Source of the DNA: a virus
Reading direction: 5' to 3' (one strand)
Virus record (IMG/VR): IMGVR_UViG_3300030012_001302
Coordinates: 1-27,732 of that record
Length of the DNA: 27,732 nt
Shown in pieces: positions 10,083-27,732 of the stretch. A program made the translations under genes and the position numbers. Numbering within the stretch: the stretch's first letter is position 1; each line of letters starts with the position of its first letter. Below the pieces are notes generated by a model. That model searched no databases and was not told the DNA's origin. It was given only the letters and a program-made list of their open reading frames with translations.

Positions 10083-10124
10083 ATTTATCCAAATGCTATC
10101 CTTGCAAAGTGTTGATATCTATAC

Positions 10125-10168: not shown

Positions 10169-10257
10169 AAAGAAAAGAATAGAAAAGAAAAGAACATAAG
10201 TTATTAGTGCAAAATGACTTTGAAATTTATTGTCTATATTTAGGGCAAACGTAACCA

Positions 10258-10626: not shown

Positions 10627-10635
10627 CAATATACA

Positions 10636-11109: not shown

Positions 11110-11551
11110 CGTTGACAAAATAGCACAGGAGATCATTAGTGGCCTAAAGGCTACAATGAGCGAAAAAGGCCGTACTGCAACAGGTCAGAGTAACGCCACA
11201 TTGTACTCAGAGTATGACGAGGGCAATATGGTGCTGTCTATAATGGGAGCAGACCATTGGAAGTTTATTGAGAAAGGCAGACCCGCAGGAGGTGAAAAGC
11301 CACCTTATGCACGCATACTTGAATGGTGTATTGCGAAAGGTATACCACAACAAGCAGCTTGGGCAATACGCACTAACATTGCCAAGTATGGCTCACCAAG
11401 ACAAAAAGATTCAACGTCTATTGACCAAAGTAAGTTAGGAGTCGTGGCAGACACCTTAAAGGCAGTCGAGCCTTTTATATTGCGTGAATTAGACAAACAA
11501 GTAGAGGCTTCATTTGAGGCCACAATAGGGAAAGAATGGCAATCACTATAA
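11099..11551 (+). CDS. HK97 gp10-like neck / head-tail joining protein
   Basis: This 150-aa protein shows the family pattern: a helical start (VDKIAQEIISGLKATM), WKFIEKGRPAGGEKPPYARI (about 58-77) and a helix-rich KGIPQQAAWAIRTNIAKYGS (about 83-102). The WxFIExGRPxG...PPY..I..W arrangement is typical of HK97-gp10-like proteins in Bacteroidota phages and prophages. I start at ATG 11099 (11-nt overlap with the upstream stop, as also seen at 24883 and 25082). The longer reading from 11069 adds ten residues lying over the previous gene. It overlaps the next gene by 16 nt. Confidence 0.7.
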   Translation: MTINVDKIAQEIISGLKATMSEKGRTATGQSNATLYSEYDEGNMVLSIMGADHWKFIEKGRPAGGEKPPYARILEWCIAKGIPQQAAWAIRTNIAKYGSPRQKDSTSIDQSKLGVVADTLKAVEPFILRELDKQVEASFEATIGKEWQSL

Positions 11552-12861
11552 CAGACCAACCAACAACAGACAAGTTCTTTAGTACTGAGTATCCGCTTGT
11601 AATAAAAGCAACAAGCAACAACGCAAGTATTAAGTACCTCAAGTTTACTATCACAGACACAGCAACAACAGGACTTAATATACCATCGTACTATGCGCCA
11701 CAGATTAACAGCGAGTTCACCTTTAACGTGAGCGACTATATGAACGCATACCTGTCAATCATACGTGACGATTTAGTAAGTTACGATGCAACGCCTAGTA
11801 TACACGTATACACCAACCTTACGCAGGACGTACAGATTGACATAAGGGAAATAGAAACAGATGGTACAACAGCAGCACAAGCACAAAGCAACGACTTCTT
11901 TCTTTGCAAGTTTAAGCATCAGCTATACAACGGCGACGGCACAGCAGAGGAGTACATCGACAACAGATACTTTCTAACCACGTTACCATACTTTAGAAGT
12001 ACAGCACTTGGTGACCCTGTATCGTTCTTCTTAACAGATGGCAGACAGACGGTCAATATGTTGACGGATTACAGCCGTGTTTGCTTGTTTAACCGACACG
12101 ATGCAAGCATAAGCTCTGACCTAACCGTTACAGCAACAAGCCTTGACAATGTAATTATAGCAACAGCCACTATCGACTTAGCATCTTCCTTTGTATCGCA
12201 AGAGGAGATTATTGGCATACCTGTAAACATTGACGATGTGCAAGCATTAAGTGTAGCCTCAGGACAATCAGGATTTAACCTACTTGGAACGCCTGTGTCA
12301 ACGTCTACAATAAAGTCCACTTACAAAAAGATTAGAGCAATTATAGGTGACACGCCTGACCAAAGCACAGCAACCATAGAGTTCCTAAACCCTAGCCTCT
12401 TTGGTAAATGCCCTAAGACATTTATATATATGAATCGCTTTGGTGTTCACGAGGTGCTAACGCTAAACACTAAAACTAACGAGTCTGTTGTTAGCAGTCG
12501 AGATAATGCGACACTTGTCAATACTGACCCATTTGGTGCTAATACTAATGACTTAGGCCGTTACCTTTTGACGGGTGCAAGACAAAGAGCAATAAACCCC
12601 AAGAGCGAGTTTGAATTTCAGGTAAACAACACCTTACCCTATCCACCTGAGCAAGCACGAGAGATTGCGCTTGACTTCTTTGCAAGTCCTGTGCATTATT
12701 GTGTGGATGTAGATACTGCTTACGGAACTTTTGACATATTACATCCTGATACAGGGACAGAAAAAATACGTAGAATAACAATAAACGATGGTAAGGTTGA
12801 CGTGATCAAGAACAACAGGGCACAACGCTTATCTTTTTCTTACCGATATGCAGACGTATGA
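11536..12861 (+). CDS. Beta-rich tail structural protein
   Basis: This 441-aa protein, lying between neck genes and the large tail-tip gene, is likely a distal-tail or baseplate component. The N-terminus (MAITITDQPTTDKFFSTEYP) is followed by alternating strands (SIKYLKFTITDTATTGLNIP) and an NVSDYMNAYL segment that resemble tail proteins common in Bacteroidota phages, which begin with a two-strand motif and a 'pDISdyl' stretch. It is Thr/Asn/Asp rich with few Lys. I cannot assign a named family with certainty. It overlaps the next small gene by 4 nt (ATGA). Confidence 0.6.
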   Translation: MAITITDQPTTDKFFSTEYPLVIKATSNNASIKYLKFTITDTATTGLNIPSYYAPQINSEFTFNVSDYMNAYLSIIRDDLVSYDATPSIHVYTNLTQDVQIDIREIETDGTTAAQAQSNDFFLCKFKHQLYNGDGTAEEYIDNRYFLTTLPYFRSTALGDPVSFFLTDGRQTVNMLTDYSRVCLFNRHDASISSDLTVTATSLDNVIIATATIDLASSFVSQEEIIGIPVNIDDVQALSVASGQSGFNLLGTPVSTSTIKSTYKKIRAIIGDTPDQSTATIEFLNPSLFGKCPKTFIYMNRFGVHEVLTLNTKTNESVVSSRDNATLVNTDPFGANTNDLGRYLLTGARQRAINPKSEFEFQVNNTLPYPPEQAREIALDFFASPVHYCVDVDTAYGTFDILHPDTGTEKIRRITINDGKVDVIKNNRAQRLSFSYRYADV

Positions 12862-13037
12862 CAACAACAGAGTTAAAGATTATGTATCCCAAACTGCGCA
12901 AGGCGGACAACTACGTTTGTGTTACGTTTGACAACGAGGACGAGGCTACCTTTTCAATGGACTTAACCTATGACCAATGTGACGTGTTGGTTACTTGGTT
13001 AATTGACCAAATGGATTCAATGGACAAAATGCAATGA
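12858..13037 (+). CDS. Small hypothetical protein in the tail block
   Basis: This 59-aa protein lies between two tail genes, with ATGA overlaps at both ends (12858-12861 with the upstream stop; 13034-13037 with the downstream start). It begins MTTTELKIMYPKLRKADNYV and ends LVTWLIDQMDSMDKMQ, with strands followed by an acidic helix. The double stop-start coupling is good evidence that it is real. The function is unknown; it could be a small tail assembly factor. Confidence 0.75.
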   Translation: MTTTELKIMYPKLRKADNYVCVTFDNEDEATFSMDLTYDQCDVLVTWLIDQMDSMDKMQ

Positions 13038-15724
13038 GAGCTGCACAACTATACATAAAGGAGACAGGCAAGTACATACAACTTGGACAAGGTGGTGACT
13101 TTCCGTTTACGCTTAGCAAGTCAATTGCAGAGATACAGGACATAAGCAAACGCAATAAGACATTTAGTAAGTCGTTTAAGATACCTGCGACTGATGACAA
13201 CGTCAAGGCTCTAGGATACGCACACGTCATAGGGACAGACCTTGATGCCATAAACGTATACAAGCAACAATGCTTTATTATCGTTAACGGCAATGTCATA
13301 GATGACGGATATGTCTATATACTAAAGGCAAGACGCAACACAGACGCAGTAGAATTTGAGTGTCAATTTGTAGGTGGCAATGAAGCTTGGGTTGTGGCCT
13401 TACAATCGCTGAAGATGTCAGATATGACAACCAATACAAGTGGCACGGTTTTGCAACTTGACTACACCGATGCTAATATACTTGCACGTGTTGTGCCTGA
13501 CCCTCGCACAATGCTTGACCCAAGTTATGTCTTTGTCAATCCGTATATGTACAAGTTCAGCGACAGCGATGCAGACAACTACGACAGCACAGAAACATAC
13601 AACGGCACAAGTCGCAACGCAAGAGGCACAGACTTTTGGCCTGCATTTAGACTTGACTTTCTTATTGACGGCATATTTGGCACAGCAACAAATCCACTTG
13701 TTCAACAGGTGTTTGGCTTTGATTCTTTTAAGCTAGACAGCGACTTTCTAACGGACAACGCAACACACGGATTTTGGGACAACATATATTACAGCGACCG
13801 AAGCCAAGACGACTATCCTGACGTTACATTTGGAGCAACGGAAGATTGGCGTTTTTTCTTGCCAACTGATGTTACAATGCTTGACTTCTTTATGAATGTT
13901 TGCAAGACGTTTAACCTAATCTTTAGTTTTGACGGCATTACGCTAAAGGTTGAGCCACGACAGGAATGGACATCTTGGAACGGCACAACATACGATGGCT
14001 TTTACTCAGGCGATATTGATTGGAGTGAGAAGGTAAGCGTAAATCAAGAGGTGCAATACAAGACAAGCAATTACAAAAGGCAGGTGCGTATGTCTTGGGG
14101 TACTGAAAGCTATCCCATTGATGACAATATGTATCCGTTTATTACTGACGAAAACGTAAGTCAGCCTGAAGTGCGTTACATAATTGACCTAGACAGTAAC
14201 AACGAGGAAGGCATAACAGACATCAAGCTGCCATTCAACACAAGCCTTAGTAAGTTCTATCAAGCCAAGTTCGACAGAGTTCGCACACGAGGCTTTGTAG
14301 GCCCAATTACAGAAGACGAAGCAAACCAAGCGACATCAATAACGTTTGACCCTGACAACACCTATTCTAACCGATTATTTGTATTTAAGTCAGGCTCTGC
14401 CCCTATGGGTATGCCACGCCACGTTAATGCAATAAGTGGGGTAACAGGAAGATACACAGGATTAGAGGCCTACTTGTTCACGCCTACTTGGAGACAATGG
14501 GTATATGAACAAAGTGGAGGTACACTTAGCACACAGCTTGGTTATCCTTATATGTACAACTGTATGACGATTAATCCCTACGTACACACAGATGAAACAC
14601 TTGCATTAGGCGATGGCTCTTCGTTGTCAAGTATTGTAACTAAGGTATCTGACTTCGACACAATAGAGAACGTAGATGTTGCCGATGTAAGTGTAACAAG
14701 ACAGCCGTCAGATGCTACCGACTTAGGTCGATTGACAGACATTGCAAGCAATGACATTGATGACGTTAATCTTGGTATTTACAACGCTAACACGGTCACA
14801 ATGGTTGACGGTTTATACGAGCGATTTTGGAAGACTACACTTGAGAAGTTAATTACAACACGCACATTAGTCACGCAGGTGCTATTGAGTCGTAACGAGT
14901 TTGTGAATCTTGACATCTCTAAGTACTACACGCTAATGGGCCAACGCTTTATCCTAAACAAGGTTAAGGACTTTGACCCTATGCTTGACGAGCAGATGGT
15001 CGAGGTTGAGTTGTTGGCTGTCGATGCGTTTAGGTCAAGCGATGAGCAAGAAGGAGGAGAGAATATCGTAACGGACGGATTGATATTTAGAGTAGATGCA
15101 AATGACCCTGCAAGCTACGGAGGCACAGGCACAACGTGGACAGATGTTGTAAACGGCAATAACGGCTCAATACTTAACGGAGCAACATACAACTCAGCAC
15201 AAGGTGGTTACTTTGAGTTTGATGGTGTAGATGACCAAGTAGATTTTGACCAACCTGCAATCCTTGAGTCTTATCCATTGTCGATTGACATTTGGTTTTA
15301 TTCGTCTCATAACAATAGTGGTATTATCACAAAGGGACGAACGAGAGGCTCTTCATCGCAAAGAGATTTTGATATAACAGGTACAGGAACTAATATAAGA
15401 TTTTTGATAAGTCGTGGCTCAGGATATAATTTCATAATGGATAATACTTATCCATCTCTTAACGTATGGCATCACCTGAGCGTTTCTTGGGACGGAACAA
15501 CAGGAACAAATGGTGCTAAGATGTATCTTGATGGCGCACTATATGCACAAGCCACGGCAAGCTCTGCAAGTTTTGCCACATCGCACGATATCTTTGCAGG
15601 AGGTAACAGGTCAGGATTTATGATGAACGGACGTATATCAACTATTAAAATGTACAACAAAGCGTTAAGTGCAGCTGAAGCACTACAAAATTACAACGCC
15701 TCAAAAGCGAGATACGGATTATGA
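13034..15724 (+). CDS. Large tail-tip protein with C-terminal LamG-like domain (candidate receptor binding)
   Basis: This 896-aa protein's residues 1-120 contain FPFTLSKSIAEIQDISKRNK and TFSKSFKIPATDDN, a pattern of tail proteins in Bacteroidota phages. The central part is Tyr/Asp/Asn rich and beta-like. From about 681 onward (nt 15076) a new module begins: GLIFRVDANDPASY, FEFDGVDDQVDF, LSIDIWFYSS, NVWHHLSVSWDGT and IKMYNKALSAAEALQNYN. These are the sequential strands of a LamG/concanavalin-like jelly roll, a carbohydrate-binding fold. The link to the central part passes through a Glu/Gly-rich hinge (SSDEQEGGENIV). This end of the protein is therefore the best candidate for host-surface recognition. 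Part of the module (about 15280-15440) is more A/T rich than its surroundings, consistent with exchange. Confidence 0.72.
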   Translation: MRAAQLYIKETGKYIQLGQGGDFPFTLSKSIAEIQDISKRNKTFSKSFKIPATDDNVKALGYAHVIGTDLDAINVYKQQCFIIVNGNVIDDGYVYILKARRNTDAVEFECQFVGGNEAWVVALQSLKMSDMTTNTSGTVLQLDYTDANILARVVPDPRTMLDPSYVFVNPYMYKFSDSDADNYDSTETYNGTSRNARGTDFWPAFRLDFLIDGIFGTATNPLVQQVFGFDSFKLDSDFLTDNATHGFWDNIYYSDRSQDDYPDVTFGATEDWRFFLPTDVTMLDFFMNVCKTFNLIFSFDGITLKVEPRQEWTSWNGTTYDGFYSGDIDWSEKVSVNQEVQYKTSNYKRQVRMSWGTESYPIDDNMYPFITDENVSQPEVRYIIDLDSNNEEGITDIKLPFNTSLSKFYQAKFDRVRTRGFVGPITEDEANQATSITFDPDNTYSNRLFVFKSGSAPMGMPRHVNAISGVTGRYTGLEAYLFTPTWRQWVYEQSGGTLSTQLGYPYMYNCMTINPYVHTDETLALGDGSSLSSIVTKVSDFDTIENVDVADVSVTRQPSDATDLGRLTDIASNDIDDVNLGIYNANTVTMVDGLYERFWKTTLEKLITTRTLVTQVLLSRNEFVNLDISKYYTLMGQRFILNKVKDFDPMLDEQMVEVELLAVDAFRSSDEQEGGENIVTDGLIFRVDANDPASYGGTGTTWTDVVNGNNGSILNGATYNSAQGGYFEFDGVDDQVDFDQPAILESYPLSIDIWFYSSHNNSGIITKGRTRGSSSQRDFDITGTGTNIRFLISRGSGYNFIMDNTYPSLNVWHHLSVSWDGTTGTNGAKMYLDGALYAQATASSASFATSHDIFAGGNRSGFMMNGRISTIKMYNKALSAAEALQNYNASKARYGL

Positions 15725-15960
15725 GAACTTATGTGATAGTAAATGTAACGGACTTAGAACTGCTTGACTATGGTCAGCTAATGACAACAAGCATTGAGAC
15801 AACGATGCGTAATGTTAACAATGACAAAGCGGTCGTCAAGTACGAAGGTGCAATGCCGTCTACAATTGCAAAACTAGTCGATAAAACACTTTACGATCAC
15901 ACCGAGATATTAGGCATTTTACAAACCGATGAATGGCGAGGACAACCTGATGAAGAATGA
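15721..15960 (+). CDS. Small hypothetical tail-block protein
   Basis: This 79-aa protein begins in an ATGA overlap with the tail-tip gene. It has an alternating start (MRTYVIVNVTDLELLDYGQL) and an acidic end (LQTDEWRGQPDEE). It is followed by another small gene and then the tape measure, a place where assembly factors are often found. No family is recognised. Confidence 0.72.
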   Translation: MRTYVIVNVTDLELLDYGQLMTTSIETTMRNVNNDKAVVKYEGAMPSTIAKLVDKTLYDHTEILGILQTDEWRGQPDEE

Positions 15961-16130
15961 GGTACTACATATTTAACACAGAGAAAGAAGCACGAGAGGT
16001 AAGTCTTAGAGTGTACACCAATGGCATTGATTGGGTTGCAGAAGTTCCTGCATACGTACACGTTGACGAATTGAATAACAGAATTTGGTTGCTACCACAA
16101 GAGGCAACCGACTTAGGATACTTTGAATAA
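15957..16130 (+). CDS. Small hypothetical protein upstream of tape measure
   Basis: This 57-aa protein has an ATGA overlap with the previous stop and a TAATG overlap with the tape-measure start. It reads MRYYIFNTEKEAREVSLRVY at the front, then a Trp-containing segment (IDWVAEVPAYVHVDEL) and LPQEATDLGYFE at the end. It looks like a small alpha/beta protein. No frameshift-prone slippery run links it to its neighbours, so it does not look like the classical G/GT pair expected here. Confidence 0.75.
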   Translation: MRYYIFNTEKEAREVSLRVYTNGIDWVAEVPAYVHVDELNNRIWLLPQEATDLGYFE

Positions 16131-19015
16131 TGGCACAAACAATACTTGAATTACAACTTAAAGGAGTTGACGAAGCGAAGGCTAGTATGCAAGGACTGTC
16201 TGAGGAGATAGTCGAACAGAAGCTAAAACAAACAGAACTGAAAGGTGCATTAAAGGAAACAAAGAAAGCACTTGATGCAGGTACTATAAGTGAGAAGGAC
16301 TACACTAAAGCAGTAGCTCAGAACAACATTGAAATGGAGAAATCCAAGAAGATTGTTCGTGAAAACTCTGCAACGCTTAGACAGAATATCAAGGTATTAG
16401 ATGCCCAAGAAGGTAGCCTTGACCAAATGCGAGCATCTCTCAACTTGCTACAAAAGGAGTTTGGTCAACTTGATCAAAGCACACAAGAGGGTGCAATGGC
16501 AGCCGATGCAATGAAGCAACGTATCCAAGCATTAGACACAGCCGTCAAAGCACAAGAGGAAAGTATAGGAGACCACAGACGAAGTGTGGGAGACTACGGT
16601 AAAGCATTACAAGGACTTGGTCAGTACTTTCCTATACTAGGTGCAAACATTAGCGCAGCAGCTCCGTTCCTTGGTGACTTTGGTGAGAAGATAAACAAGT
16701 TCGCACCATTGATAAATGTAATGGGTCAGAACTTAGGTTTTGCAGGTGGCAAGATGAACGAGTTCGTATCCTCTGCAAGTGAAGGCCCAAGCGTACTAAA
16801 ACGAACACAGGACACAATAAGCAAAATGCCTAAAGGCTTAAAGGCGTTAAAGGCGGGTTTTCAAGCAGCGGCAGGAGGAATATACGGAGCAGTTAAGGCA
16901 AGTCTTGCGTTTCTTGCAACACCGATTGGATTGGCATTGGCAGCAGTTGCAGCAGCCACAGCAGGAGCGATTGCATTGTTTAGTCGGGCTAAAAAGAAAG
17001 CAGCAGAAGAAACAAGACAAGCAGCGGCAGAACTTGCAGCCGCAGAACAAGAAACTAAAAGAATAGCTAAACAAATGAATGATTCCTTAGCTGATTCTTT
17101 AATACTTGGAGATGCACAAATTGCAGGATTAAAAAGAAGCTTTGTTGATGCATTTGCAGAATTAGATTCTTTATTTGAAACCGCAGGAAAAGATGGCGGT
17201 GAGCAATATGGTGATGCCTTTAACGAAAAGGTTGACGCAGCACTTGGCAGGTCACAGGAGACTATAAAATCTCAGTATGAAGCAGAGCGTGCCGTTTTGG
17301 CAAAACTTACAAAAGAGGCACAAGAAACTGCAAAAAAATTGTCTGTTGCTTCTAGGTCAGATTTAACAGATATTTCAATAGATTTTGCAGATGAATATTC
17401 ACAAACCATAGTTGCAGCAGCAGGCTCAAAATTTGTAGCTGAAGACCTTAACAAATATCTTATTCCACAACGCGAAGGCTTTGAACAAGCTTTTTCTGCT
17501 GCTCAATCGTATGGTAAAAAATTACAAGAACTAGACCAAACATTTAAGTTTGATATCGCACTATCTAAGGAGCTTGCCGAACAAACTAAAAAAACAGCAG
17601 AAAGCTACGATGGCACTACTAAGTCAGTTGAGGATTTAGCAGAAGAGGAGGATAAACTTAAAAAAGAAAGAGAAGCACGTGCAGAAGCAAGAAGGAAAAG
17701 ACGAGAGGAAGAAAGGAAAGCAGAAGAGGCAAGAAAGAAAATGATTGATGACCTGATTGATAAGGAATCAGAGCGTACACTAACAGAGGAGGAGTTAATT
17801 GACAAGAGGTTTTACGACAAGCTCAGAGAGTTAGAGTTGGACGGTGACATTACCAAGATGACCGAGAAGGAGCTTGAATTGCGTACTGCGTTATATGCAA
17901 AGTATAACGATGACTTAAAAGACCTTAGAGACAAGAACGAAGCTGATGCAGAAAAAACAGCAAAAGAATCGTTTGACAAAAGCCTAAAGTTATTAGAGGA
18001 TAATTTAGCAATGGACATCCTTGTCAGGGAGACGGCAATGCTCGAGAAGCTACGAAATGAAAAACTAACTGAAGAGCAAAAGTTAAAACTACAAAAAGAC
18101 TTTCAGGACGAATCTCTTGAACTGCAACGAGAGGCTTTAGTTAAGCAGATTGCACTTATTGAGGGTACACTTGGCGAAGGCAAAACATCGGCACAGCTCG
18201 AGCAATTACGCAACGCACTTGCAAAACTTGGCGTAGAGATACAACAAGCAGGCATAGACCCTGAGACAGGAGAGCATAAGACACTTGCCGAGAGGCTTGG
18301 ATTAAGCGAAGAGCAAGTTGACAAAATTAACAAAGGTGTTGCAGGCGTAGAGGCAGGATTGGATGCAATGAGCCAAATGACACAAGCACAAGCTGCGGAG
18401 CGATTAGCTAACGTTGACCAAATGTTACAACAAGGCGTGATAAACGAAGAGGAGGCAACACGCAAGAAGGAGCAAATACAAAGAGAGGCAGCACGTAAAC
18501 AACAGAAAATTGATATTACACAAGCTGTAATAAACACAGCCAAGGCGGTTACCTCTGCACTTAACACACAGCCTTTCTTGCCTGCAGGATTAATAATGGC
18601 AGGAATTGCAACAGCACAAGGTGCTGCACAGATAAAGATGATTAGGTCACAGAAGTTTAGTAAAGGCGGAATGCTAAGCGGCCCAAGTCACGCACAAGGC
18701 GGAATACCTATGTTCAGCAAGGGAGGTGCGTTCTATGGCGAGGCAGAAGGCGGTGAGGCTGTACTAACTAAAGGAGTAATGGCAAATCCTGCACTTGCAC
18801 GAATGGCATCAGCAATAAACGTTGCAGGTGGTGGTGTGCCTTTCTTTGCTAATGGTGGTGTTCTTGACCCTATACAATCAGCAACGCCAACAGACCGAGC
18901 AGCAGACATAATTGCATCAGGATTAAAATCACGACAGCCTGTATTGGTTGTTGAGCAACTGCGAGATCGTGAGAATAGTGTAGACGTTATTGAATCATTA
19001 AGAACAATCGGATGA
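16130..19015 (+). CDS. Tail tape measure protein
   Basis: This 961-aa protein sets tail length and is ejected with the DNA. Long charged heptad regions dominate (about 1-130 and 480-640), separated by a hydrophobic stretch around 254-284 (KASLAFLATPIGLALAAVAA...) typical of tape measures. A glycine-rich C-terminal part includes FSKGGMLSGPSHAQGGIPMF, a repeat common near the end of these proteins. It is the longest gene in the genome. With the known rough ratio of 0.15 nm per residue the tail would be near 145 nm, consistent with a siphovirus. The segment around 17040-17660 is more A/T rich than its flanks and uses different codons, suggesting a recombined internal block. Confidence 0.92.
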   Translation: MAQTILELQLKGVDEAKASMQGLSEEIVEQKLKQTELKGALKETKKALDAGTISEKDYTKAVAQNNIEMEKSKKIVRENSATLRQNIKVLDAQEGSLDQMRASLNLLQKEFGQLDQSTQEGAMAADAMKQRIQALDTAVKAQEESIGDHRRSVGDYGKALQGLGQYFPILGANISAAAPFLGDFGEKINKFAPLINVMGQNLGFAGGKMNEFVSSASEGPSVLKRTQDTISKMPKGLKALKAGFQAAAGGIYGAVKASLAFLATPIGLALAAVAAATAGAIALFSRAKKKAAEETRQAAAELAAAEQETKRIAKQMNDSLADSLILGDAQIAGLKRSFVDAFAELDSLFETAGKDGGEQYGDAFNEKVDAALGRSQETIKSQYEAERAVLAKLTKEAQETAKKLSVASRSDLTDISIDFADEYSQTIVAAAGSKFVAEDLNKYLIPQREGFEQAFSAAQSYGKKLQELDQTFKFDIALSKELAEQTKKTAESYDGTTKSVEDLAEEEDKLKKEREARAEARRKRREEERKAEEARKKMIDDLIDKESERTLTEEELIDKRFYDKLRELELDGDITKMTEKELELRTALYAKYNDDLKDLRDKNEADAEKTAKESFDKSLKLLEDNLAMDILVRETAMLEKLRNEKLTEEQKLKLQKDFQDESLELQREALVKQIALIEGTLGEGKTSAQLEQLRNALAKLGVEIQQAGIDPETGEHKTLAERLGLSEEQVDKINKGVAGVEAGLDAMSQMTQAQAAERLANVDQMLQQGVINEEEATRKKEQIQREAARKQQKIDITQAVINTAKAVTSALNTQPFLPAGLIMAGIATAQGAAQIKMIRSQKFSKGGMLSGPSHAQGGIPMFSKGGAFYGEAEGGEAVLTKGVMANPALARMASAINVAGGGVPFFANGGVLDPIQSATPTDRAADIIASGLKSRQPVLVVEQLRDRENSVDVIESLRTIG

Positions 19016-19191
19016 CAGACAACATACGTAAGATGATCAACACAGGTGCGTTTGTGCCTATCAATGTAAAGCAAATTGCAAAGGCTTATTATCGTGAGCG
19101 TTTACAGATACACGGAGAATCTATGAAGGCGTACAAAGAGACTGCACAGAAGTTTGGACGGTCTTCTGAATGGGTTAGAAAAATAATGTAA
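19012..19191 (+). CDS. Small helix-turn-helix-like protein
   Basis: This 59-aa protein overlaps the tape-measure stop by 4 nt (ATGA). The C-terminal 20 residues (YKETAQKFGRSSEWVRKIM) have the spacing of a helix-turn-helix (a helix with A-x-x-F-G, turn, then S-x-x-x-V-R-x-I). The upstream YYRERLQIHG is basic and helical. It sits at the boundary between tail and head blocks, 32 nt before the protease gene, so a regulator of head-gene expression is conceivable. A structural role cannot be excluded. Confidence 0.62.
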   Translation: MTDNIRKMINTGAFVPINVKQIAKAYYRERLQIHGESMKAYKETAQKFGRSSEWVRKIM

Positions 19192-19223
19192 AAAATACCA
19201 ATGGTTTTGCGTATCGTTGCAGA

Positions 19224-20744
19224 ATGCCAATAAACCCTGACAAGCCTGCGTTAACGCAAAGCGAATACGACAGGTTTGACTTTGCTTATGCCAAAGACCT
19301 TAAGGATAACTATCCACGTATTTGGAAAGCAGGAGGCAACATAAGAGGCAATGAGGCTTTTGAGTACTACACCAAGTACAGAGAAGGCGAGAGAACAGAG
19401 GGGACGTTGCAATGGGTATCGGAAAGGGAAGCGTGGTGTGCAAGACACTTCGAGGACGGCAGTCAATTTAAAGACGATACAAGTCCTAACCTTGCCAACA
19501 TTGCAGGAGTTGTTGCTCAAATCAAATGGGCGTGTGTTGGCACATTAGGCGAAAAGCGTATGAAAGAAGTAATCAATACAGTAAAAGCTAAAATCAGCGA
19601 CTCGTCACTTACACAGATAACCAACAAAGCAGAAGGCGTGGAAGTAGTGCTTTCAGGCGAGGTTGGTAATTGGGACGTATCCGCAAGACAGATTGCTGAT
19701 GCAATCGAAAATAAAACAGGTGTGCCTTTGACCATTAAGATCAACTCAGTTGGTGGTGATGTGTTCGAAGGCTTTGCACTTTACAATGCAATTAAAATGC
19801 ACGAAGGGCCAACAACGGCAATTGTAGAGGGATTAGCAGCAAGTGCTGCAAGTCTGTTTGCAATGGCTGCCGATGTTGTTGTTATGCGACCTGCTTCAAT
19901 GATGATGGTTCACAATCCTCACACCGTTGCAGCAGGCGAATCTAAAGACTTACGACAATCAGCTGACGTACTCGACAAAGTCCGAGACATTATGGTTCAG
20001 CGATATAAAACTAAAACAGGTCAACCTGAAGAATCCTTAATTGAAATGCTTGATGCTGAGACTTGGCTAACGCCTGAGGAAGCAGTAGAGCTAGGCTTTG
20101 CCGACAAAGTAGATTACAGCGAGGAACAAGTTGGCGGTTTACATTCATCTTTAATCACTAAAATCACAGCAATGTTTAAGACTAAAAGTCAAATAGTTGA
20201 GGCGTTAACGTCCAACGAAATCAAAGACCTTGCACTTGGTTTAGATGTATCTGCTAAACTTGAACTCATTAAGGCACTTGCCGACAATGTAGAAGGAGTT
20301 GAGGAGGTATGCGTTAAACTTGGTGAAGGCGAAGAGAAGTATATGTCTTCTCCTGAGGTTGCAGTTATCCCAATGGAGGGACACGCTATGTTAATCGCTT
20401 TAGGCGTATTGGAAGAGCGTACTGCTGAAGCTATGGACGAGGAAGAGGAAGAACTTTATTCTCAAGAAGAAGAAGAGGAGGAAGAAGTAGCAGCAATGAC
20501 TGAGGAAGAAAAAGAAGAACTTGAGGCTCAAGAAGAAGAAGAAGAAGAGGAAGAAGTTCCTGCTTCTAAGAAAAAGTACAATAGAGAGGTTAAGACCTTA
20601 TTGGCTGCTGTTTCTGAACTTAAAGCTCAAATGGAAGAAATCAAAGAAGAGCGTGCTGCTATGAAAGTACACACTCCTGACAATAAAGCAAGCAAAGTAG
20701 ATTGGAAAGAGCTTGCAATTCAAAATGCCCTAAATAAAAAATAA
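19224..20744 (+). CDS. Head maturation protease (ClpP-like) fused to a scaffold-like C-terminus
   Basis: This 506-aa protein has three parts. Residues 1-125 are a separate N-terminal domain (NYPRIWKAGGNIRGNEAF, QWVSEREAW, GVVAQIKWACVGTLGEKRM) found ahead of proteases in Bacteroidota phages. Residues about 135-300 are a ClpP/S14-type serine protease: INSVGGDVFEGFALYNAI, GLAASAAS with the probable nucleophile S207, MMVHNPH with H230, and TWLTPEEAVELGFAD. Residues about 390-506 are an extreme Glu-rich stretch (encoded by a purine tract at about 20430-20560) followed by a coiled coil (VKTLLAAVSELKAQMEEIKE). This resembles an internal scaffold that the protease would remove during capsid maturation. 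No separate scaffold gene is seen before the capsid gene. Confidence 0.88.
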   Translation: MPINPDKPALTQSEYDRFDFAYAKDLKDNYPRIWKAGGNIRGNEAFEYYTKYREGERTEGTLQWVSEREAWCARHFEDGSQFKDDTSPNLANIAGVVAQIKWACVGTLGEKRMKEVINTVKAKISDSSLTQITNKAEGVEVVLSGEVGNWDVSARQIADAIENKTGVPLTIKINSVGGDVFEGFALYNAIKMHEGPTTAIVEGLAASAASLFAMAADVVVMRPASMMMVHNPHTVAAGESKDLRQSADVLDKVRDIMVQRYKTKTGQPEESLIEMLDAETWLTPEEAVELGFADKVDYSEEQVGGLHSSLITKITAMFKTKSQIVEALTSNEIKDLALGLDVSAKLELIKALADNVEGVEEVCVKLGEGEEKYMSSPEVAVIPMEGHAMLIALGVLEERTAEAMDEEEEELYSQEEEEEEEVAAMTEEEKEELEAQEEEEEEEEVPASKKKYNREVKTLLAAVSELKAQMEEIKEERAAMKVHTPDNKASKVDWKELAIQNALNKK

Positions 20745-20750
20745 AATAAA

Positions 20751-21929
20751 ATGGCTAATATTACATTAAACAGTTCGACATACGCAGGATATTTTAGCGA
20801 TGTCACTCTTGCCGCCTCAGTATTAGGAGCAAGAACAATCGAGCAAGGATACGTTACCTTGCACACAAATGTAGATGACAAGTACACCGTTGTATTTGCT
20901 GACTCTGATGTTGCAATCGAGGATGCTAACGGTACATTCTCTTCATCTTCAACTGCTGACCTTTCTGAGATTAAGTTTGATTTAGGTAAGTATATGATCA
21001 ACGCAGAGATTGACTACAAGAATCTTGACAACTTTTGGTTAGCATCACAGCAACCACGAGGAGCAGCAGGAGACTACGTTGCACCTGCTTCTTTAGAAGA
21101 TGCTCTTAACGCTCACTTTGCTCAAAAGGCTTCTTTGTTCGTTGGTGCTTCTATTTGGAGTGGTTCTGCTTTAGCGGTTTCTCAGTTTGGTTCTTCTCAA
21201 GGAATCTCTCAGGGTGGTTCTAACGCTGTAACAGGTCTTATCGACACAATGCTTGCTGACTCAACAGTTAATGACATTGCTATTGGAGGTACTTACAAGC
21301 AGAGCATCACAGGCGCAAGCGAAGCATCTTCTGCTGTTATTGGAGTAGGTGACGCCTCTGACTATGCTGTTGGGGACAAAGTAACTTTTGAAGGACTTGC
21401 AGGTGGTACTTGGGATACTCAAGACGGCAAGACTTTTACAATTACTGCTATTGCTACTAACGATATCACAATTGATCTTAACTCAACATCTTTAGGTACT
21501 TGGTCAGCAGGTACGTTAACTTGTATCAATAAGAACAACGTTATACCTGCCTTAGAAGAAGTATACCGCAATATGGCAGACTCTATTCGTCTTGCTCCTG
21601 ACACGGTTTTCTACGTTCCTTCACGTATTGCTGCTGCTTACAAATTACAACAAGCAGAGGCTGCTTACTCTCCTAACGTTTACTCTCAAGATTATGAGTT
21701 GGCGTTTTTAGGCTATCGAGTTCTTGAGATTCCTGAGATGCGTAACAACGCTATCGTTTGCTCTCGAATTGCAAGTATGCACTTTGCAACGCCACTTATC
21801 AGCGACCTTAACCAAGTATTGATTGTTGACCAATCAACTGCTTCTGCAAGTCGCACTATCCGTTATCGCTTAGACTTTGCCTTTGATGTTGCTATCTCTG
21901 ATGGTAAAAGCATTACACTTCTAAGCTAA
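20751..21929 (+). CDS. Major capsid protein with inserted beta domain
   Basis: This 392-aa protein immediately follows the protease-scaffold gene. The pieces of an HK97-type capsid protein fit: an N-terminal arm, KFDLGKYMINAEIDYKNL (75-92), a long helix region (LEDALNAHFAQKASLFVGAS), and a C-terminal part with LFVP-like VFYVPSRIAAAYKLQ and HFATPLISDLNQVLIVDQS. Residues about 182-260 look like an inserted beta domain (GVGDASDYAVGDKVTFEG, GKTFTITAIATNDITIDL) of the kind that decorates capsid surfaces. The gene uses many Ala GCT and Ser TCT codons, unlike neighbours that favour GCA and AGC. This marks it as the most strongly expressed structural gene. Confidence 0.88.
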   Translation: MANITLNSSTYAGYFSDVTLAASVLGARTIEQGYVTLHTNVDDKYTVVFADSDVAIEDANGTFSSSSTADLSEIKFDLGKYMINAEIDYKNLDNFWLASQQPRGAAGDYVAPASLEDALNAHFAQKASLFVGASIWSGSALAVSQFGSSQGISQGGSNAVTGLIDTMLADSTVNDIAIGGTYKQSITGASEASSAVIGVGDASDYAVGDKVTFEGLAGGTWDTQDGKTFTITAIATNDITIDLNSTSLGTWSAGTLTCINKNNVIPALEEVYRNMADSIRLAPDTVFYVPSRIAAAYKLQQAEAAYSPNVYSQDYELAFLGYRVLEIPEMRNNAIVCSRIASMHFATPLISDLNQVLIVDQSTASASRTIRYRLDFAFDVAISDGKSITLLS

Positions 21930-21956
21930 TTTTTAACCCTTTAAAATAGCATAGAA

Positions 21957-22547
21957 ATGGCATTATCAAGTTTAACAGTAGACAAGTGTAACAGAGTAGC
22001 AGGCGGTATTAAGCGTCTTCTTATCTGTGACCTTGCAAAAATTTCAAGCATAACGTTTGACGTAACTGCGTCTAATCACGCTGTAACAGACATTGACTTT
22101 GCTGCCACAGGTGCAGGTGAAGGCTTTGTTGAATTTACCTTTAAGAAAGGCGAAGCACGTTACGAGTCTAATACAGAGCGTCAGGACAACGGAGTAGACG
22201 TTACAACCGTCAACATCTTTATGAACGTTCCTGCACCTACATCTGCACAGCTTTACTCTTTAGAGCAATTGCGTGACACTTGTGAGTTGGTTGCAGTTGT
22301 ACAAGAGTTTGGTTCAACTACCTTGCTTCGTGTATTAGGTGCTGACCAAGCAGAAAATGGAACACTTGAGTTTAACTCATTAAATGGTGGTTCAGGTTCT
22401 GTACGAACAGATGCTAACACTTTTGAATTAAACATAATGGGAATGCAAGAGCAGCCTCCATTTGTTTTAACGTCATTAACGACAGGCAGTGGATCAACTA
22501 CTGACCAAGCCGAAATGATTGCAGAGTTGTTAACACCAACTGAATAA
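21957..22547 (+). CDS. Major tail (tube) protein
   Basis: This 196-aa protein starts 27 nt after the capsid gene behind an A/T-rich leader. It begins SLTVDKCNRVAGGIKRLLIC, then ISSITFDVTASNHAVTDIDF, YESNTERQDNGVDVTTVNIF, LVAVVQEFGSTTLLRVLGAD and SGSVRTDANTFELNIMGMQE. This is the strand pattern of tail tube proteins of Bacteroidota siphophages, where the unit opens with a 'GG...' turn and ends with a domain against the neighbouring subunit. The codon use shares the GCT/TCT/CGT preference of the capsid gene, consistent with high expression. Its place next to the capsid gene and not beside the tape measure is unusual. Confidence 0.7.
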   Translation: MALSSLTVDKCNRVAGGIKRLLICDLAKISSITFDVTASNHAVTDIDFAATGAGEGFVEFTFKKGEARYESNTERQDNGVDVTTVNIFMNVPAPTSAQLYSLEQLRDTCELVAVVQEFGSTTLLRVLGADQAENGTLEFNSLNGGSGSVRTDANTFELNIMGMQEQPPFVLTSLTTGSGSTTDQAEMIAELLTPTE

Positions 22548-22548
22548 T

Positions 22549-22938
22549 ATGTCTTGCAACTGCAAGGTAAAATCACAATACAGAGGTAAGTCTGTCTCCT
22601 TAATTGGGGACAGGCTAACCCTTGTATTTCCCTTAGATGGCTCAAATCCCTACAATGAAGAAACCTGTAAACAATACCCTAAATTCTTTGAATGCCTTTC
22701 AGATACTAAACCTGCTAGACGAAAGTCACGAAAAGCCGACAATGGGGTCGGAGATAGTGGGGTATCGAGGGACAAAGTGGATAAAGTGGGGAGAGGACGG
22801 AAACGCAGGTCTGTTTCCTCAGAGGATAGCGGAAGCGTATCAGAACAGCAAAACGCTGAGAGCAGTCCTAACGCAGAAGAGCAACCTAGTAGCGTCCGAC
22901 CTGAAGACGGAGAACGAGAGCCTACAAAAGAAGATTGA
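22549..22938 (+). CDS. Small protein overlapping the portal gene out of frame
   Basis: This 129-aa reading frame starts 1 nt after the tail-tube stop. The N-terminal half (MSCNCKVKSQYRGKSVSLIG, then FPLDGSNPYNEETCKQYPKF) looks like an ordinary small domain with cysteines at 3, 5 and 40. From about residue 55 it is a low-complexity Lys/Arg then Ser/Glu-rich tail. The last 302 nt are also the start of the portal gene in the +1 frame, so either the tail is truly dual coding or only the first part is functional. No ATG in the portal frame avoids the overlap completely, and the conserved portal start lies inside it. The function is unknown. Confidence 0.62.
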   Translation: MSCNCKVKSQYRGKSVSLIGDRLTLVFPLDGSNPYNEETCKQYPKFFECLSDTKPARRKSRKADNGVGDSGVSRDKVDKVGRGRKRRSVSSEDSGSVSEQQNAESSPNAEEQPSSVRPEDGEREPTKED

Positions 22939-24223
22939 TAAGTTTACAAGTCCTAAGACTCATTACGATCTTAGACAACTTATCTATCGCGTTGCTTTAG
23001 ACGTACAACTACACGGAGAGGGCTTTATTAAAGAAGTCAGATACATAGAGTACGCAGGCAACACACCAATTAAGGAACGTAGCTTTGCAATGCACTTAGA
23101 TGCAAGTCAAGTACGTTTTGCGTCCGATGTTGACGAATACCTTGAGCCAACAGGCGTATGGGTTTCTAAGAATTGGGCGCACTATTCACGCAACGAGTAC
23201 CGACCTTATAGACTACCTTTATCAGGGTATGGCTATGAGGATTTTTACGATGAGCAAGACCGAGTGTTTAAGAAGGTTTGTGTGCATCGTGTAGGTGACT
23301 ACGAGCCTGCAATGCAAGTATATGGCCGAGCCAATTGGACAGGTGCGTATTACGATGCAATCCTTGAGAATCTATTGCCTCGTTTCAATTACACGCATTT
23401 ACAGAACTCTATACATCTAAGTGGTATCCTAAACGTAGAGATGCCGTTCACACCTGATGACGATACTGCAACAGAAATTCGTGACCGTATCCGTGAGCAA
23501 CTTAAAGGCGAGTCTGCATTTGGGCCGTCTACACCTGTGAACATTTCAGGAGGCGATGGTAAGTTGTCACTTGTACAATACAACCTACCTACTGACGGAG
23601 CATTTAAGGACTTAGGTCGTACTTGTGAGCGTAACATTATAATGGCAGCAGGATGGCATCCGTCACTTATGGGCGTTGAGGAAGCAGGCAAACTTGGCAA
23701 TACACGTGAAATAGAGAATCACCACAGACGAGTGATGCAATACGAAATCGAGCCATTACAAGAGAAGATACTGCACACCTACCTGCACACCTTAGAAGGC
23801 ACGGAGTACTACGAACTTGCAGAGCAGTCTCCAATTATGTTTGAGAACAAGCCAATGTTTACAGCACTTGACTATGTAAGCCAAGCCAAGATTGACCTTG
23901 CTGTTCCTGTTGAGGAAGTGCAAAGAGAACTTGGATATGTTGCTGAAGGCGAAGATGAAGAGCCTGCGGTAGGTGCAATGTCTCTTGAAGATGTCAGACG
24001 ATTACTTGAGGTTTATGGTACAGCAGTACGTGCAGGAGGTGTCACGCCAAATGTAGCAGACGAAGCAGCATTGCGTAAGTTAATGAACTTGCCGCAGATG
24101 AATGGCGATGTGCGACAAGGATGGATTGACGAGAAAGGTGTACGTAAACCAACAACGCTCAAGAGTCCAAGCCAAAACGTTGAGGAGGTAAGTGATGAAG
24201 CAACAGAACAAAACGAAGAGTAA
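22637..24223 (+). CDS. Portal protein
   Basis: This 528-aa protein forms the dodecameric ring through which DNA enters the head. Recognisable stretches are EIVGYRGTKWIKWGEDGNAG (38-57), RAVLTQKSNLVASD, LIYRVALDVQLHGEGFIKEV, a YDAILENLLPRFNYTHLQNS helix, and NIIMAAGWHPSLMGVEEAG (about 334-352) followed by GNTREIENHHRRVMQYEIEP. These are the usual portal core of Bacteroidota phages. The start at 22637 may be replaced by ATG 22742, just ahead of the conserved IVGYRG; both lie within the upstream gene. The C-terminus is acidic (VEEVSDEATEQNEE). It overlaps the next gene by 1 nt. It is found downstream of the capsid gene and not between terminase and protease. Confidence 0.88.
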   Translation: MAQIPTMKKPVNNTLNSLNAFQILNLLDESHEKPTMGSEIVGYRGTKWIKWGEDGNAGLFPQRIAEAYQNSKTLRAVLTQKSNLVASDLKTENESLQKKIDKFTSPKTHYDLRQLIYRVALDVQLHGEGFIKEVRYIEYAGNTPIKERSFAMHLDASQVRFASDVDEYLEPTGVWVSKNWAHYSRNEYRPYRLPLSGYGYEDFYDEQDRVFKKVCVHRVGDYEPAMQVYGRANWTGAYYDAILENLLPRFNYTHLQNSIHLSGILNVEMPFTPDDDTATEIRDRIREQLKGESAFGPSTPVNISGGDGKLSLVQYNLPTDGAFKDLGRTCERNIIMAAGWHPSLMGVEEAGKLGNTREIENHHRRVMQYEIEPLQEKILHTYLHTLEGTEYYELAEQSPIMFENKPMFTALDYVSQAKIDLAVPVEEVQRELGYVAEGEDEEPAVGAMSLEDVRRLLEVYGTAVRAGGVTPNVADEAALRKLMNLPQMNGDVRQGWIDEKGVRKPTTLKSPSQNVEEVSDEATEQNEE

Positions 24224-24681
24224 TGGCATTAATGACAGCATCCGATATAGTAACAGAAGCGTTTTACGCTAACTTTGATCCTGCCGACATTAAGGCACGA
24301 TTCATTGACTTGATTGAGGACAACACGATTAAGCCTATTCTTGGCGATACGTTGTATGCCTCTGTAAGCGGTGGGAGTCCATCTGCTGACGAAATAACGC
24401 TAAGGGATACCTACGTCAAGCCTTTGCTTGCTTATGGCGTTAAATCGCTTGTATTGGCTAATAACAGCCCACGCATCAGCAACGTTGGTGCAGCATATCC
24501 AAACACACCAAACGCAACCGCAACCAATGAAGCAAGAATGGTTGCACACAAACAAAACGAAACCTTAGTTCAGCAACTACGTCAACGACTAATTGACTAC
24601 CTACGTGACAATGCAAACACGTATGGATGGTCTGAACAAAACAATTCCGATTTTATCACCAATTCAATATTTGTAGTATGA
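24223..24681 (+). CDS. Head-tail adaptor (gp6/gp15-like connector)
   Basis: This 152-aa protein's start shares one nucleotide with the portal stop. It is predicted helical: TASDIVTEAFYANFDPADIK, then IKPILGDTLYASVSGG, LLAYGVKSLVLANNSPRISN and QQLRQRLIDYLRDNANTYGW. The IKPxLGDxLY and YLxxNxxxYx motifs are those of connector proteins of Bacteroidota phages that bind under the portal. The context next to the portal supports this. It is followed by an ATGA overlap. Confidence 0.72.
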   Translation: MALMTASDIVTEAFYANFDPADIKARFIDLIEDNTIKPILGDTLYASVSGGSPSADEITLRDTYVKPLLAYGVKSLVLANNSPRISNVGAAYPNTPNATATNEARMVAHKQNETLVQQLRQRLIDYLRDNANTYGWSEQNNSDFITNSIFVV

Positions 24682-24893
24682 GTTCATTAATAGAATTTAT
24701 CCAAGTTTGGGGATGGCAGATTGCCACTATCCTCCTAGGTGCTGTCGTGTTCTATGACCGATACATTGCACCATTAACTAAAACCAAGAAAGACGATGAG
24801 ATACTTGAGCGCATACTTGAGCTATTGCCTGATGCAATCGAGGAACGTCTATTTGTAGAAAAAGAGGAGGAGGACAAGAAGAGTGCTGAGTAA
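24678..24893 (+). CDS. Small single-pass membrane protein
   Basis: This 71-aa protein has a short N-terminus, one membrane-spanning segment (about 9-26, QVWGWQIATILLGAVVFY), then a charged helical tail (KTKKDDEILERILELLPDAIEER). It begins in an ATGA overlap with the adaptor gene and ends with an 11-nt overlap with the next gene. It is the first gene of a block leading to the holin, so it may be a spanin- or antiholin-like partner. No family is assigned. Confidence 0.72.
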   Translation: MSSLIEFIQVWGWQIATILLGAVVFYDRYIAPLTKTKKDDEILERILELLPDAIEERLFVEKEEEDKKSAE

Positions 24894-25092
24894 GTTTCTT
24901 GCCTCGATTATAGAGTTCTTTGCAGGAATTGGTAAGGCTCTGCCAACAATAGCAGACAACCAAAGAACACGCTTAGAGATTAAGCGACCTGCAAAAGAAG
25001 CACGTGCTAAACTACGTGCAACTCGAATCAAGAGGAGGCAATTACGAGCAGACCGTAAACTTCGCAAACGTGCAAAGAAGAGTGATACATAA
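24883..25092 (+). CDS. Small basic protein before the holin
   Basis: This 69-aa protein uses a GTG start at 24883 that overlaps the previous stop by 11 nt; no ATG is available. The first 22 residues (MLSKFLASIIEFFAGIGKAL) are amphipathic-hydrophobic. The rest is a strongly basic helix (AKLRATRIKRRQLRADRKLR) with over 20 Lys/Arg. Membrane-active plus cationic is a common layout for lysis accessories, but this is only a description; no family is recognised. Confidence 0.6.
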   Translation: MLSKFLASIIEFFAGIGKALPTIADNQRTRLEIKRPAKEARAKLRATRIKRRQLRADRKLRKRAKKSDT

Positions 25093-25462
25093 AGGCATAC
25101 TTACAACGATACTTACAGCAATTGGATGGTTCTTGCTACCTATTGCGTGGTATCTTGTATTTACTATTGCCTTAGTGTTTGCTGATCTTTACACAGGATG
25201 GCGTGCATCTAATATGCGCTTTATTAGTCGAGGTGTGCGTAAAAGCATTGACAAGGCCATTGCTTATTTTATTGCTATATTAATTGCACACGCATTTGAC
25301 CTTTTGTATTTGCCTGATGGCAGACTAATCGTATCATTTGCAGTTAGCAGTATAATCGCATCGACTGAGATGCTTAGTGTTTATGAGAACATACAACGGC
25401 ATACAGGGACAGGGTTACTATCAGCAGTCAAAAAGTATCTCAATGGTAATCCTAAATCCTGA
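25082..25462 (+). CDS. Holin (phage_holin_4-like)
   Basis: This 126-aa protein has two or three hydrophobic spans: GWFLLPIAWYLVFTIALVFA (15-34), AIAYFIAILIAHAFDLLYL (about 59-77) and LIVSFAVSSIIASTEML. FADLYTGWRASNMRFISRGV (33-52) with RKSIDKAIAY matches the D-x-x-TG...A...SRxxRxxxxKxxxY core of phage_holin_4-type holins. I take the GTG at 25082 as the start because it gives the same 11-nt overlap seen at 24883 and 11099 and leaves a clean N-terminal helix. A longer reading from 25004 adds 26 residues lying over the upstream gene. It would open the membrane for the signal-less endolysin at 5668. Confidence 0.75.
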   Translation: MIHKGILTTILTAIGWFLLPIAWYLVFTIALVFADLYTGWRASNMRFISRGVRKSIDKAIAYFIAILIAHAFDLLYLPDGRLIVSFAVSSIIASTEMLSVYENIQRHTGTGLLSAVKKYLNGNPKS

Positions 25463-26024
25463 GGGTGGAGGTACTATTGCAGGCCTATATAATGGAAAAC
25501 ACTCTCCTGAGTTTAGACACGGTATCCTTAACGGTGGTAATTTTAGTCGTTGGATATGCAATGATCTTCAAAGAGAGTTAGATTACGAGGCAATACATTA
25601 CACGAGCATCTGCCCTGAACTAAGCAACGTGTCAGAGTGTACACGTGTACAGCGTTTAAACAGCTACACAATGGCATACGACACCTTTGCCTTATCTATC
25701 TATACAGGAACACACGAACGTTCAGGAATACGCATCTTAGGCAACATCCGTGAACGTAGCGAAGAAATAGGCGAGTTGCTTTATGAAGAGATGTCTATAA
25801 ATATGGAAGGTTGGCAAATGCCTGTGGACAAAGTTTGCTATGATTTGGAACACGAGCATTCTATTTTAAAGAAACCAAAATGTGCGTCTTTTGTTATATA
25901 TGCAGGAAGTGTTGACCTATACTATGATTATAGTCGAATGATTAACTTGCAGTTTCAGGAGTCGCTTGTTGGTGCATTATTTAATACAATCAAAACTATA
26001 TGTCAGAAATCAGGCCAAGACTAA
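25443..26024 (+). CDS. Amidase_3-like protein lacking catalytic residues
   Basis: This 193-aa protein follows the layout of N-acetylmuramoyl-L-alanine amidase type 3: a first strand VILNPEGGG (2-10) where active members have LDPGHGG, then GKHSPEFRHGILNGGNFSRW (18-37) where the zinc-binding Glu is expected, and TFALSIYTGTH (81-91) where they have LSIHxN. The late 'vE.gF.sN' strand is FVIYAGSVDL. So all three zinc ligands and the catalytic Glu appear replaced. It may be a cell-wall-binding pseudoenzyme or a regulator of lysis. I use ATG 25443 (20-nt overlap with the holin) because it begins at the first conserved strand. The family assignment is by pattern and moderately certain. Confidence 0.6.
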   Translation: MVILNPEGGGTIAGLYNGKHSPEFRHGILNGGNFSRWICNDLQRELDYEAIHYTSICPELSNVSECTRVQRLNSYTMAYDTFALSIYTGTHERSGIRILGNIRERSEEIGELLYEEMSINMEGWQMPVDKVCYDLEHEHSILKKPKCASFVIYAGSVDLYYDYSRMINLQFQESLVGALFNTIKTICQKSGQD

Positions 26025-26710
26025 GCGGACAACGCAGGAAAGCATTTGAAAATCTAACACGTGATGAACGAAGGATTCTTGTTATTGGAGACATACACGA
26101 GCCATTTTCTCTTGATGGATATTTGGGATTTTGTCAAGACGTTTATAATAGGCACAATTGCAATCAAGTTATATTTATTGGAGATATTATAGATAACCAC
26201 TATGCCTCGTATCACGAGACAAGTCCTAATGGATTAGGTGGAGGCGATGAATTGCAATATGCTATTGACAGAGTAAAGGATTGGGCAAATGCTTTTCCTG
26301 TTGCTGATGTTACCGTGGGCAATCACGATCGGATTGTAATGAGGCGTGCATTTAGTAGTGCAATTCCGCAACAATGGATAAAGTCATACAATGAGGTGCT
26401 TGGCACAAATTGGAATTGGACAGACAGAGTAGTTTACGACAACGTTCAGTACGTACACGGTGAAGGAGGTACGGCACGAACACGAGCCAAGAATGATATG
26501 CAGTCAACCGTACAAGGACACATACACACACAAGCTTACACCGAGTGGATGGTTGGCAACAAGTTTAAGATATTTGCAATGCAAGTAGCTTGTGGCATAA
26601 ATCGTGAAAGCTATGCTATGGCATACGCTAAAAACTACAAGAAGCAAGCTATTGGTTGTGGTGTTGTTATCGGAGGACACACAGCGATTAATTGTTTGAT
26701 GGATTTGTAG
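26000..26710 (+). CDS. Calcineurin-like metallophosphoesterase
   Basis: This 236-aa protein's dimetal motifs are complete: GDIHEP (30-35), GDIIDNH (61-67), GNHDR (107-111), a later VHGEGG and GHIHTQ. These coordinate two metal ions in phosphodiesterases and phosphatases. The N-terminus (MSEIRPRLSGQRRKAF) is basic. Substrates of phage members are uncertain: cyclic nucleotides used in host defence, nucleic acid ends or small phosphates are all possible. It overlaps the preceding gene by 25 nt and is followed after 13 nt by a nuclease-like gene. Confidence 0.88.
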   Translation: MSEIRPRLSGQRRKAFENLTRDERRILVIGDIHEPFSLDGYLGFCQDVYNRHNCNQVIFIGDIIDNHYASYHETSPNGLGGGDELQYAIDRVKDWANAFPVADVTVGNHDRIVMRRAFSSAIPQQWIKSYNEVLGTNWNWTDRVVYDNVQYVHGEGGTARTRAKNDMQSTVQGHIHTQAYTEWMVGNKFKIFAMQVACGINRESYAMAYAKNYKKQAIGCGVVIGGHTAINCLMDL

Positions 26711-26723
26711 TATATTTCGCCTA

Positions 26724-27134
26724 ATGCGTTTTGAAACAGACAAAGATTTACAACGAGAAGAAAAAGCGATACAACGCTTTGTCAGCCTGTTTGGTGGCAG
26801 TTACAACAAGCTAGGGCCGCACGATGTAGACTATGCAGTATACGACAAGCACGACAGGCTTATATCGTTTGTAGAGGTTAAAGGCAGAAACAAAACTATT
26901 GCACGAGCATTCCCTTTGCCTATTGCTTGTCGCAAAATTCAAAAGCTAAGACAAAAACAACTAAACCCTGTAATCATTTGGGATTGCCTTGACGGATACA
27001 TCTACGGCAAACTGAACCACATCAAAGGCGTGGAAAGGATAGGAGGCAGAAAGCCAAGAGAAGGTGCAACAAATGACATCGAGTGGATGACGTATTATTC
27101 TAATAAAAGTCAGTTTACGATCATTAAGCACTAG
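26724..27134 (+). CDS. PD-(D/E)XK-like nuclease
   Basis: This 136-aa protein has HDVDYAVYD (33-41) and FVEVKGR (49-55), giving the D-x(n)-E-x-K active-site arrangement (D34 or D36, E51, K53) of restriction-like nucleases. A helix with Glu (13) precedes it, as in the fold. The C-terminal half is basic (KIQKLRQKQL) and ends on a strand. The small single-domain size fits Holliday-junction or VRR-like phage nucleases. The stop codon shares the four bases CTAG (27131-27134) with the stop of the convergent minus-strand frame. It starts 13 nt after the phosphoesterase. Confidence 0.72.
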   Translation: MRFETDKDLQREEKAIQRFVSLFGGSYNKLGPHDVDYAVYDKHDRLISFVEVKGRNKTIARAFPLPIACRKIQKLRQKQLNPVIIWDCLDGYIYGKLNHIKGVERIGGRKPREGATNDIEWMTYYSNKSQFTIIKH

Positions 27135-27732
27135 AGACTACCTGAAGCGTATATCTGTCCGTATTTCATAAACTCTAAAAGACAAGCTTGATAGGTGTGT
27201 TCTATGACACTTCCTTGTTCAGCAGGCTTTGCAAATATACCTGCGGATGCAAGCCGAGCAACCATCGTAGTCCATCCAAAGTTATATTTGGGAGCAGACG
27301 AGTTGCTTTTTTCGTGAGTTCTGTCAAAGAAGGCAGGGTATCCTTCTTGAATGTGTGATTGAACAAAAGAAAAAAAAAGGAGGCGGATAGTATTGCGTCC
27401 ATATTGACATCCTTCCAATCTTCTAGTCTACGTGCAAACTCTACGTCATTAACTTCGACAGGGCCACGAGCAAACGCAGCCAACAAAAGGAGTCCTACAT
27501 CTGCATTGCTATTGCTATCGTACTCTGAATCTTGTAAAAACTTCATTGCATCGTTGGCATTTTCCCAATCTCCGACCGTCATAAACGGCTTGTCACCTGC
27601 TTGTGCTTTGCCTAACATTGGTATTTCATACATTACATCGTTGTGCCAAAACTCTTTGACCTCAGGCATCTCCTCCATCCACATTATAAGGTTGCCAAGT
27701 ATAGCAGAGAACTCCATAATGTTGGCCTCGTT
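27131..27732 (-). CDS. Tail-assembly-chaperone-like protein, C-terminal part, with -1 frameshift
   Basis: This is the continuation of the gene starting at 281. In frame 0 it passes MEFSAILGNLIMWMEEMPEV, YEIPMLGKAQAG, GDWENANDAMKF, LLLLAAFARGPVEV and AILSASFFF, then ends at 27202 (236 aa). At the T9 run (27378-27370 read on the minus strand) the -1 frame opens and continues to 27131: SFVQSHIQEGYPAFFDRT, then KYNFGWTTMVARLASAGIF and VIEHTYQACLLEFMKYGQIY, for a total near 260 aa. The FF stop-over followed by an FGW..LA..G segment is the arrangement of tail-assembly chaperones of the G/GT kind. Leu codons favour the -1 frame after the run (the frame-0 tail is rich in CTG/CTC, rare elsewhere here). 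The lone minus orientation and distance from the tape measure are unusual for such a protein, so the name is tentative. Confidence 0.65.
27370..27378 (-). promoter_or_regulatory. Candidate -1 frameshift (slippery) site
   Basis: On the minus strand the codons read TCC TTT TTT TTT CTT, a nine-T run that contains the T-TTT-TTT slippery heptamer in the correct phase (X XXY YYZ). Slipping back one base joins the frame-0 gene to the downstream -1 frame. I did not identify a stimulatory hairpin after it by eye. A one-base homopolymer error would give the same picture. Confidence 0.5.
27632..27732. repeat. Terminal direct repeat, right copy
   Basis: This repeats 1-101 with a single T/C difference at 27634 against 3. 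Removing one copy gives a circle of about 27,631 bp in which the minus-strand gene is continuous. Confidence 0.93.

Follow-up and report, generated by a model that had tools for sequence, protein, structure and literature searches.

The stretch of viral DNA analysed here (IMG/VR virus record IMGVR_UViG_3300030012_001302, 27,732 nucleotides, referred to throughout as the window) contains nine consecutive Ts within a single minus-strand gene. The question was whether this slip gene is decoded into two proteins by a -1 slip at that run. The slip had been proposed from the letters of the window, and comparison with relatives supported the proposal, with the run of nine Ts (T9), the -1 frame and both alternative tails all retained. 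On these comparative grounds the slip site, coding in the -1 frame and constraint on both tails were demonstrated.

Layout of the slip gene

The phage genome in the window is circular, with ends that repeat over ~101 bp with one mismatch, and the hosts of the phage appear to be flavobacteria-like. The slip gene crosses the contig junction on the minus strand, running from an ATG at 281-279 to stop codons in the 27131-27204 region (Table 1). This start codon is backed by the relatives, in which the upstream in-frame ATG runs into a stop. Frame 0 reads TCC TTT TTT TTT CTT across the run, and the two frames overlap at these codons in the slippery phase, as originally predicted. The predicted -1 frame of 79 codons was likewise confirmed and ends at the stop of the convergent gene, inside CTAG. 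Both tails are long, as had been pointed out (55 and 79 codons), and their length is conserved in relatives. Runs of at least nine A or T were observed twice in the window against 0.3 expected under an order-2 Markov model. The gene had also been described as alone on its strand; in 12 related loci all other window genes that could be mapped lie on the other strand.

Table 1. Coordinates of the slip gene, its parts and the genes used as context in the window
Feature	Position	Strand	Remark
Slip gene 5' part, ahead of junction	1..281	-	ATG 281-279; resumes at 27631 once the repeated ends are merged
A-rich leader directly upstream of start codon	294..302	-	A9 in window; 7-9 A in relatives
Terminase large subunit	8006..9160	+	distant relatives: homologous gene directly after terminase
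Tape measure protein	16130..19015	+	context: long-tailed phage
Convergent gene, PDDEXK endonuclease (PF24579)	26724..27134	+	
CTAG common to the stop codons of two convergent genes	27131..27134	.	
-1 tail	27131..27370	-	79 codons + stop (27131-27133); conserved GYP.FFDR and FGW motifs
Frame-0 tail	27202..27369	-	55 codons + stop (27202-27204); apparently under constraint
Slip site T9	27370..27378	-	heptamer T_TTT_TTT in -1 phase; exact T9 in 13/13 close copies
Shared part, remainder down to run	27371..27631	-	first 181 residues, T run included

The PDDEXK gene was found in the window and in locus L012. At the remaining close loci reaching that far, the slip gene abuts a metallophosphoesterase gene, tail to tail. 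Elsewhere in the window a 129-aa ORF (22549-22938) overlaps the start of the portal gene (22637-24223) by ~300 bases in a different frame; the DNA is kept in 7 relatives, but substitutions in the overlap track the portal frame.

Slip site in close relatives

The close set consisted of 12 loci from a scan of viral contigs, to which two more records were added. Run-spanning copies numbered 13 with the window included, loci L012 and L014 being left out of the count. All 13 carried exactly nine Ts in the same phase, and neither eight nor ten Ts occurred in any of them. Identity of the -1 tail to that of the window was 65-99% among close copies, and in every uncut copy the frame-0 tail extended for 54-55 codons. 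An open frame 0 alone is unsurprising in the window clade (P 0.31-0.41). The slip gene was present in only 4 of 80 metallophosphoesterase loci, all 4 of the window clade. Isolated phages searched directly with the window gene gave no match, and the same was true of bacterial genomes searched with its profile.

Homopolymers are error-prone in sequencing and loci L012 and L013 start near the run, which would suit a sequencing or assembly error in a gene that is truly continuous. Against this, an identical T9 was found in copies from numerous different metagenomes as well as in the isolates P12024L and P12024S. Because 13/13 close copies have exactly nine Ts, error as the source of the run was refuted by the relatives and is left with a negligible probability. 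An uninterrupted homologue was not seen either: the split was kept in 44/44 distant copies, in 83/83 further loci and in the two isolates.

Selection on the two tails

Mean pS was 0.606 upstream of the run (frame 0), 0.204 in the overlap (-1 frame) and 0.629 past the frame-0 stop, with means taken from ten close copies (nine for the upstream part). Silent changes were thus ~3-fold rarer in the overlap than before the run or past the frame-0 stop, and both tails therefore appear to be under protein-level selection in the window clade. In codon permutations with nine copies, 0/20,000 gave a silent rate as low as that observed in the overlap. The best low-rate segment extended from codon -1 to codon 56 and the frame-0 stop lies at codon 55, so that the segment fits both the run and this stop within one codon. 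The +1 frame contained 2-4 stops over the same stretch. No antisense frame was open in all 12 copies over the overlap, and antisense coding was not supported as the source of the low silent rate. The few silent changes present showed no significant tendency to be conservative in frame 0 (4038/20,000 draws as good).

In the distant family described below, the silent rate dropped in 68/80 pairs with upstream pS of 0.02-0.6. The drop was weak in one clade, sites past the frame-0 stop were few and pS was also low there. For these reasons the comparative case for dual coding is firm for the window clade only.

Search for distant relatives

A terminase profile reached Bacteroidota phages ~39-45% identical in terminase, and the window frame-0 profile gave weak but repeated matches to one gene directly after terminase. 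With this profile, ORFs of the family ranked 1-8 of 6034 ORFs (hmmsearch), a ranking that may favour longer ORFs. The post-terminase gene carries T9 or T10 at its FF codons and is on the same strand as terminase. Among 75 loci, the gene could be demonstrated in 44, each with an open -1 frame and with T9 or T10, always in one phase. A scan with the family profile, in which the run was not used, yielded 80 viral and 3 flavobacterial MAG loci with T9 in 80/83 and T10 in 3/83. In the 80 of these loci uncut by a contig end, frame 0 extended 47-83 codons and the -1 frame 77-92 codons past the run, the viral loci having been ranked by how well they matched a complete frame-0 protein, a procedure biased towards long frame-0 tails. 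Both the 44 and the 83 distant loci, sets that have some contigs in common, combine homologous N and T parts with T9/T10 at the FF codons. Synonymous recoding of the -1 proteins rarely left frame 0 this long (18/18, P <1/3000 to 0.035). In one distant copy (L221, 5715-6506) the frame-0 tail exceeds the -1 tail (103 versus 92 codons from the run).

Profiles of the distant family and of the window clade were compared with hhalign, giving E 0.00096 (probability 22%) and E 0.0051 (probability 7%), which are weak values; an unrelated control gave E 0.041. The profile alignment sets FFF of the window on FF of the family. In both groups the N part precedes the T part and a -1 slip site lies at nine Ts. 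From this alignment, the common order of parts and the matching slip, the window gene was judged likely to belong to the T9 frameshift family. If it does, the gene would have moved to the opposite strand in the window clade.

Phrog_32199, the function of which is not named, matched the shared N part of 6/6 distant frame-0 proteins scanned (E 4e-13 to 1e-21). The match stops near the slip site, so the T part is not covered, and unlike the distant members the window protein was not matched. Six Bacteroides, Phocaeicola, Parabacteroides and Flavobacterium phages were fetched; four scanned with profiles gave no credible homologue, and none of the six matched two weak PHROG leads.

Proposed products and slipping machine

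One gene would give two proteins with ~181 residues in common. Ordinary decoding would produce a 236-aa protein with the 55-residue frame-0 tail, and a one-base slip at the T9 a 260-aa fusion with the 79-residue -1 tail. The pair would act like gpG/gpGT of lambda, in that an abundant chaperone would coat the tape measure protein and the rarer fusion would recruit the tail tube subunit. Two products of a T9 slip working as such a chaperone pair are considered probable; from the lambda analogy we infer both the chaperone role and the product ratio.

Two other readings concern whether the tails are used in this way. The -1 ORF could be an independent gene that starts internally, as it is annotated in Nonlabens phages P12024L and P12024S (gp40/gp41). 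In the distant family the point at which the -1 frame opens varies from 2 to 62 codons ahead of the run, which argues against one conserved start, and a separate gene is very improbable. Alternatively, frame 0 could stay open past the slip site only for ribosome coverage or for termination near the next start (translational coupling), with an inert peptide. In several distant phages frame 0 does stop only a few codons from the next gene, and the length of frame 0 varies from 51 to 103 codons from the run among the 44 loci. The window clade, however, has no downstream gene on that strand. Silent sites are moreover cut three-fold over the whole of its overlap, beyond what stop avoidance needs, as only 2/108 possible silent changes there would create a stop. 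Coupling with an inert tail was accordingly rated unlikely.

The two products could arise on the ribosome or through RNA polymerase slipping on the run, in which case mRNAs with an extra U would be translated normally into the -1 product. Both forms of slippage fit. The run is never shorter than nine in 13 + 44 + 83 + 2 copies (some shared between sets), which fits the need of polymerase slippage, while a heptamer needs seven; the window clade and the distant family also reach nine with different flanks. Slippage of bacterial RNA polymerase at nine A or T is reported in PMC5009743. A conserved downstream RNA structure was not detected: 1/46 pairs were compensated, and folding gave z of -0.4 to 0.9 in 4/5 copies and -2.2 in the window. 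A downstream structure as frameshift stimulator was not supported by compensation or folding z. On the other hand the codon phase of the run is fixed, and part of the excess of Ts is accounted for by the amino acids encoded, namely a hydrophobic residue ahead of FF and, in the -1 frame, Leu. Upstream Val codons use GTT and GTA about equally, yet a T invariably precedes the pair of Phe codons, which fits the need of the heptamer. This invariant T slightly favours the ribosome as the slipping machine, and polymerase slippage is put at somewhat below an even chance. The slip gene offers a case in which the ribosomal and transcriptional alternatives can be tested against each other.

Comparison with known systems

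The products are most likely tail assembly chaperones, by analogy. A tape measure protein is encoded in the same genome as the slip gene. The WGWY motif is T-domain-like, and we take it to resemble known T domains. Pfam and PDB yielded no family at all, and PHROGs no known chaperones; the single PHROG matched, with no named function, was hit by distant members only. AlphaFold models were poor (pLDDT 36 and 55).

The chaperone analogy is based on lambda gpG/gpGT as treated in the review PMC5009743. As in lambda, a short phage gene would be read with a -1 slip close to its 3' end to give a long fusion in which a shared N part is followed by a T part, in a long-tailed phage with a tape measure protein. 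By sequence comparison, the upstream frame carries a slippery site close to its end, through which it is joined to the second frame. The window gene differs from gpG/gpGT in having no detectable sequence family, a slip run of T9 and apparent constraint on both tails. It also lies on the opposite strand and far from the tape measure gene, and not between the major tail protein and tape measure genes on their strand (281..27131, minus, versus 16130-19015, plus). The frame-0 product of such pairs typically, though not strictly, ends soon after the slip site; the mean distances from slip site to frame-0 stop reported in PMC10885494 are 26 nt for SEA-PHAGES and 36 nt for Xu phages, compared with 55 codons (165 nt) in the window gene.

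A search of open-access literature (titles and abstract starts) returned no paper on the T9 frameshift family. The chaperone reading would carry the gpG/gpGT principle over to a large set of flavobacterial phages with genes unnamed in Pfam and PHROGs. The family would also be a clean natural case of dual coding, with roughly 50-100 codons in two frames forming alternative ends of one protein and, in the window clade, selection apparent on both dual-coded ends. More speculatively, a big unannotated Bacteroidota-phage family may make two chaperones with both C-termini (~50-100 residues) functional and encoded by dual-frame DNA, the ratio being set by RNA polymerase slipping on a run that must contain nine or more Ts; this combined reading is possible but doubtful.

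The Nonlabens phages P12024L and P12024S are isolates from a marine flavobacterium host, and their gp40/gp41 were found by tblastn to be related to the distant family. They share the T9 in the same phase and the same place after terminase, but have a frame-0 tail of only ~25 codons. In P12024L, gp40 and gp41 (NC_018272.1 23946-24640, L227) are annotated as two hypothetical proteins and look like one -1 frameshifted gene.
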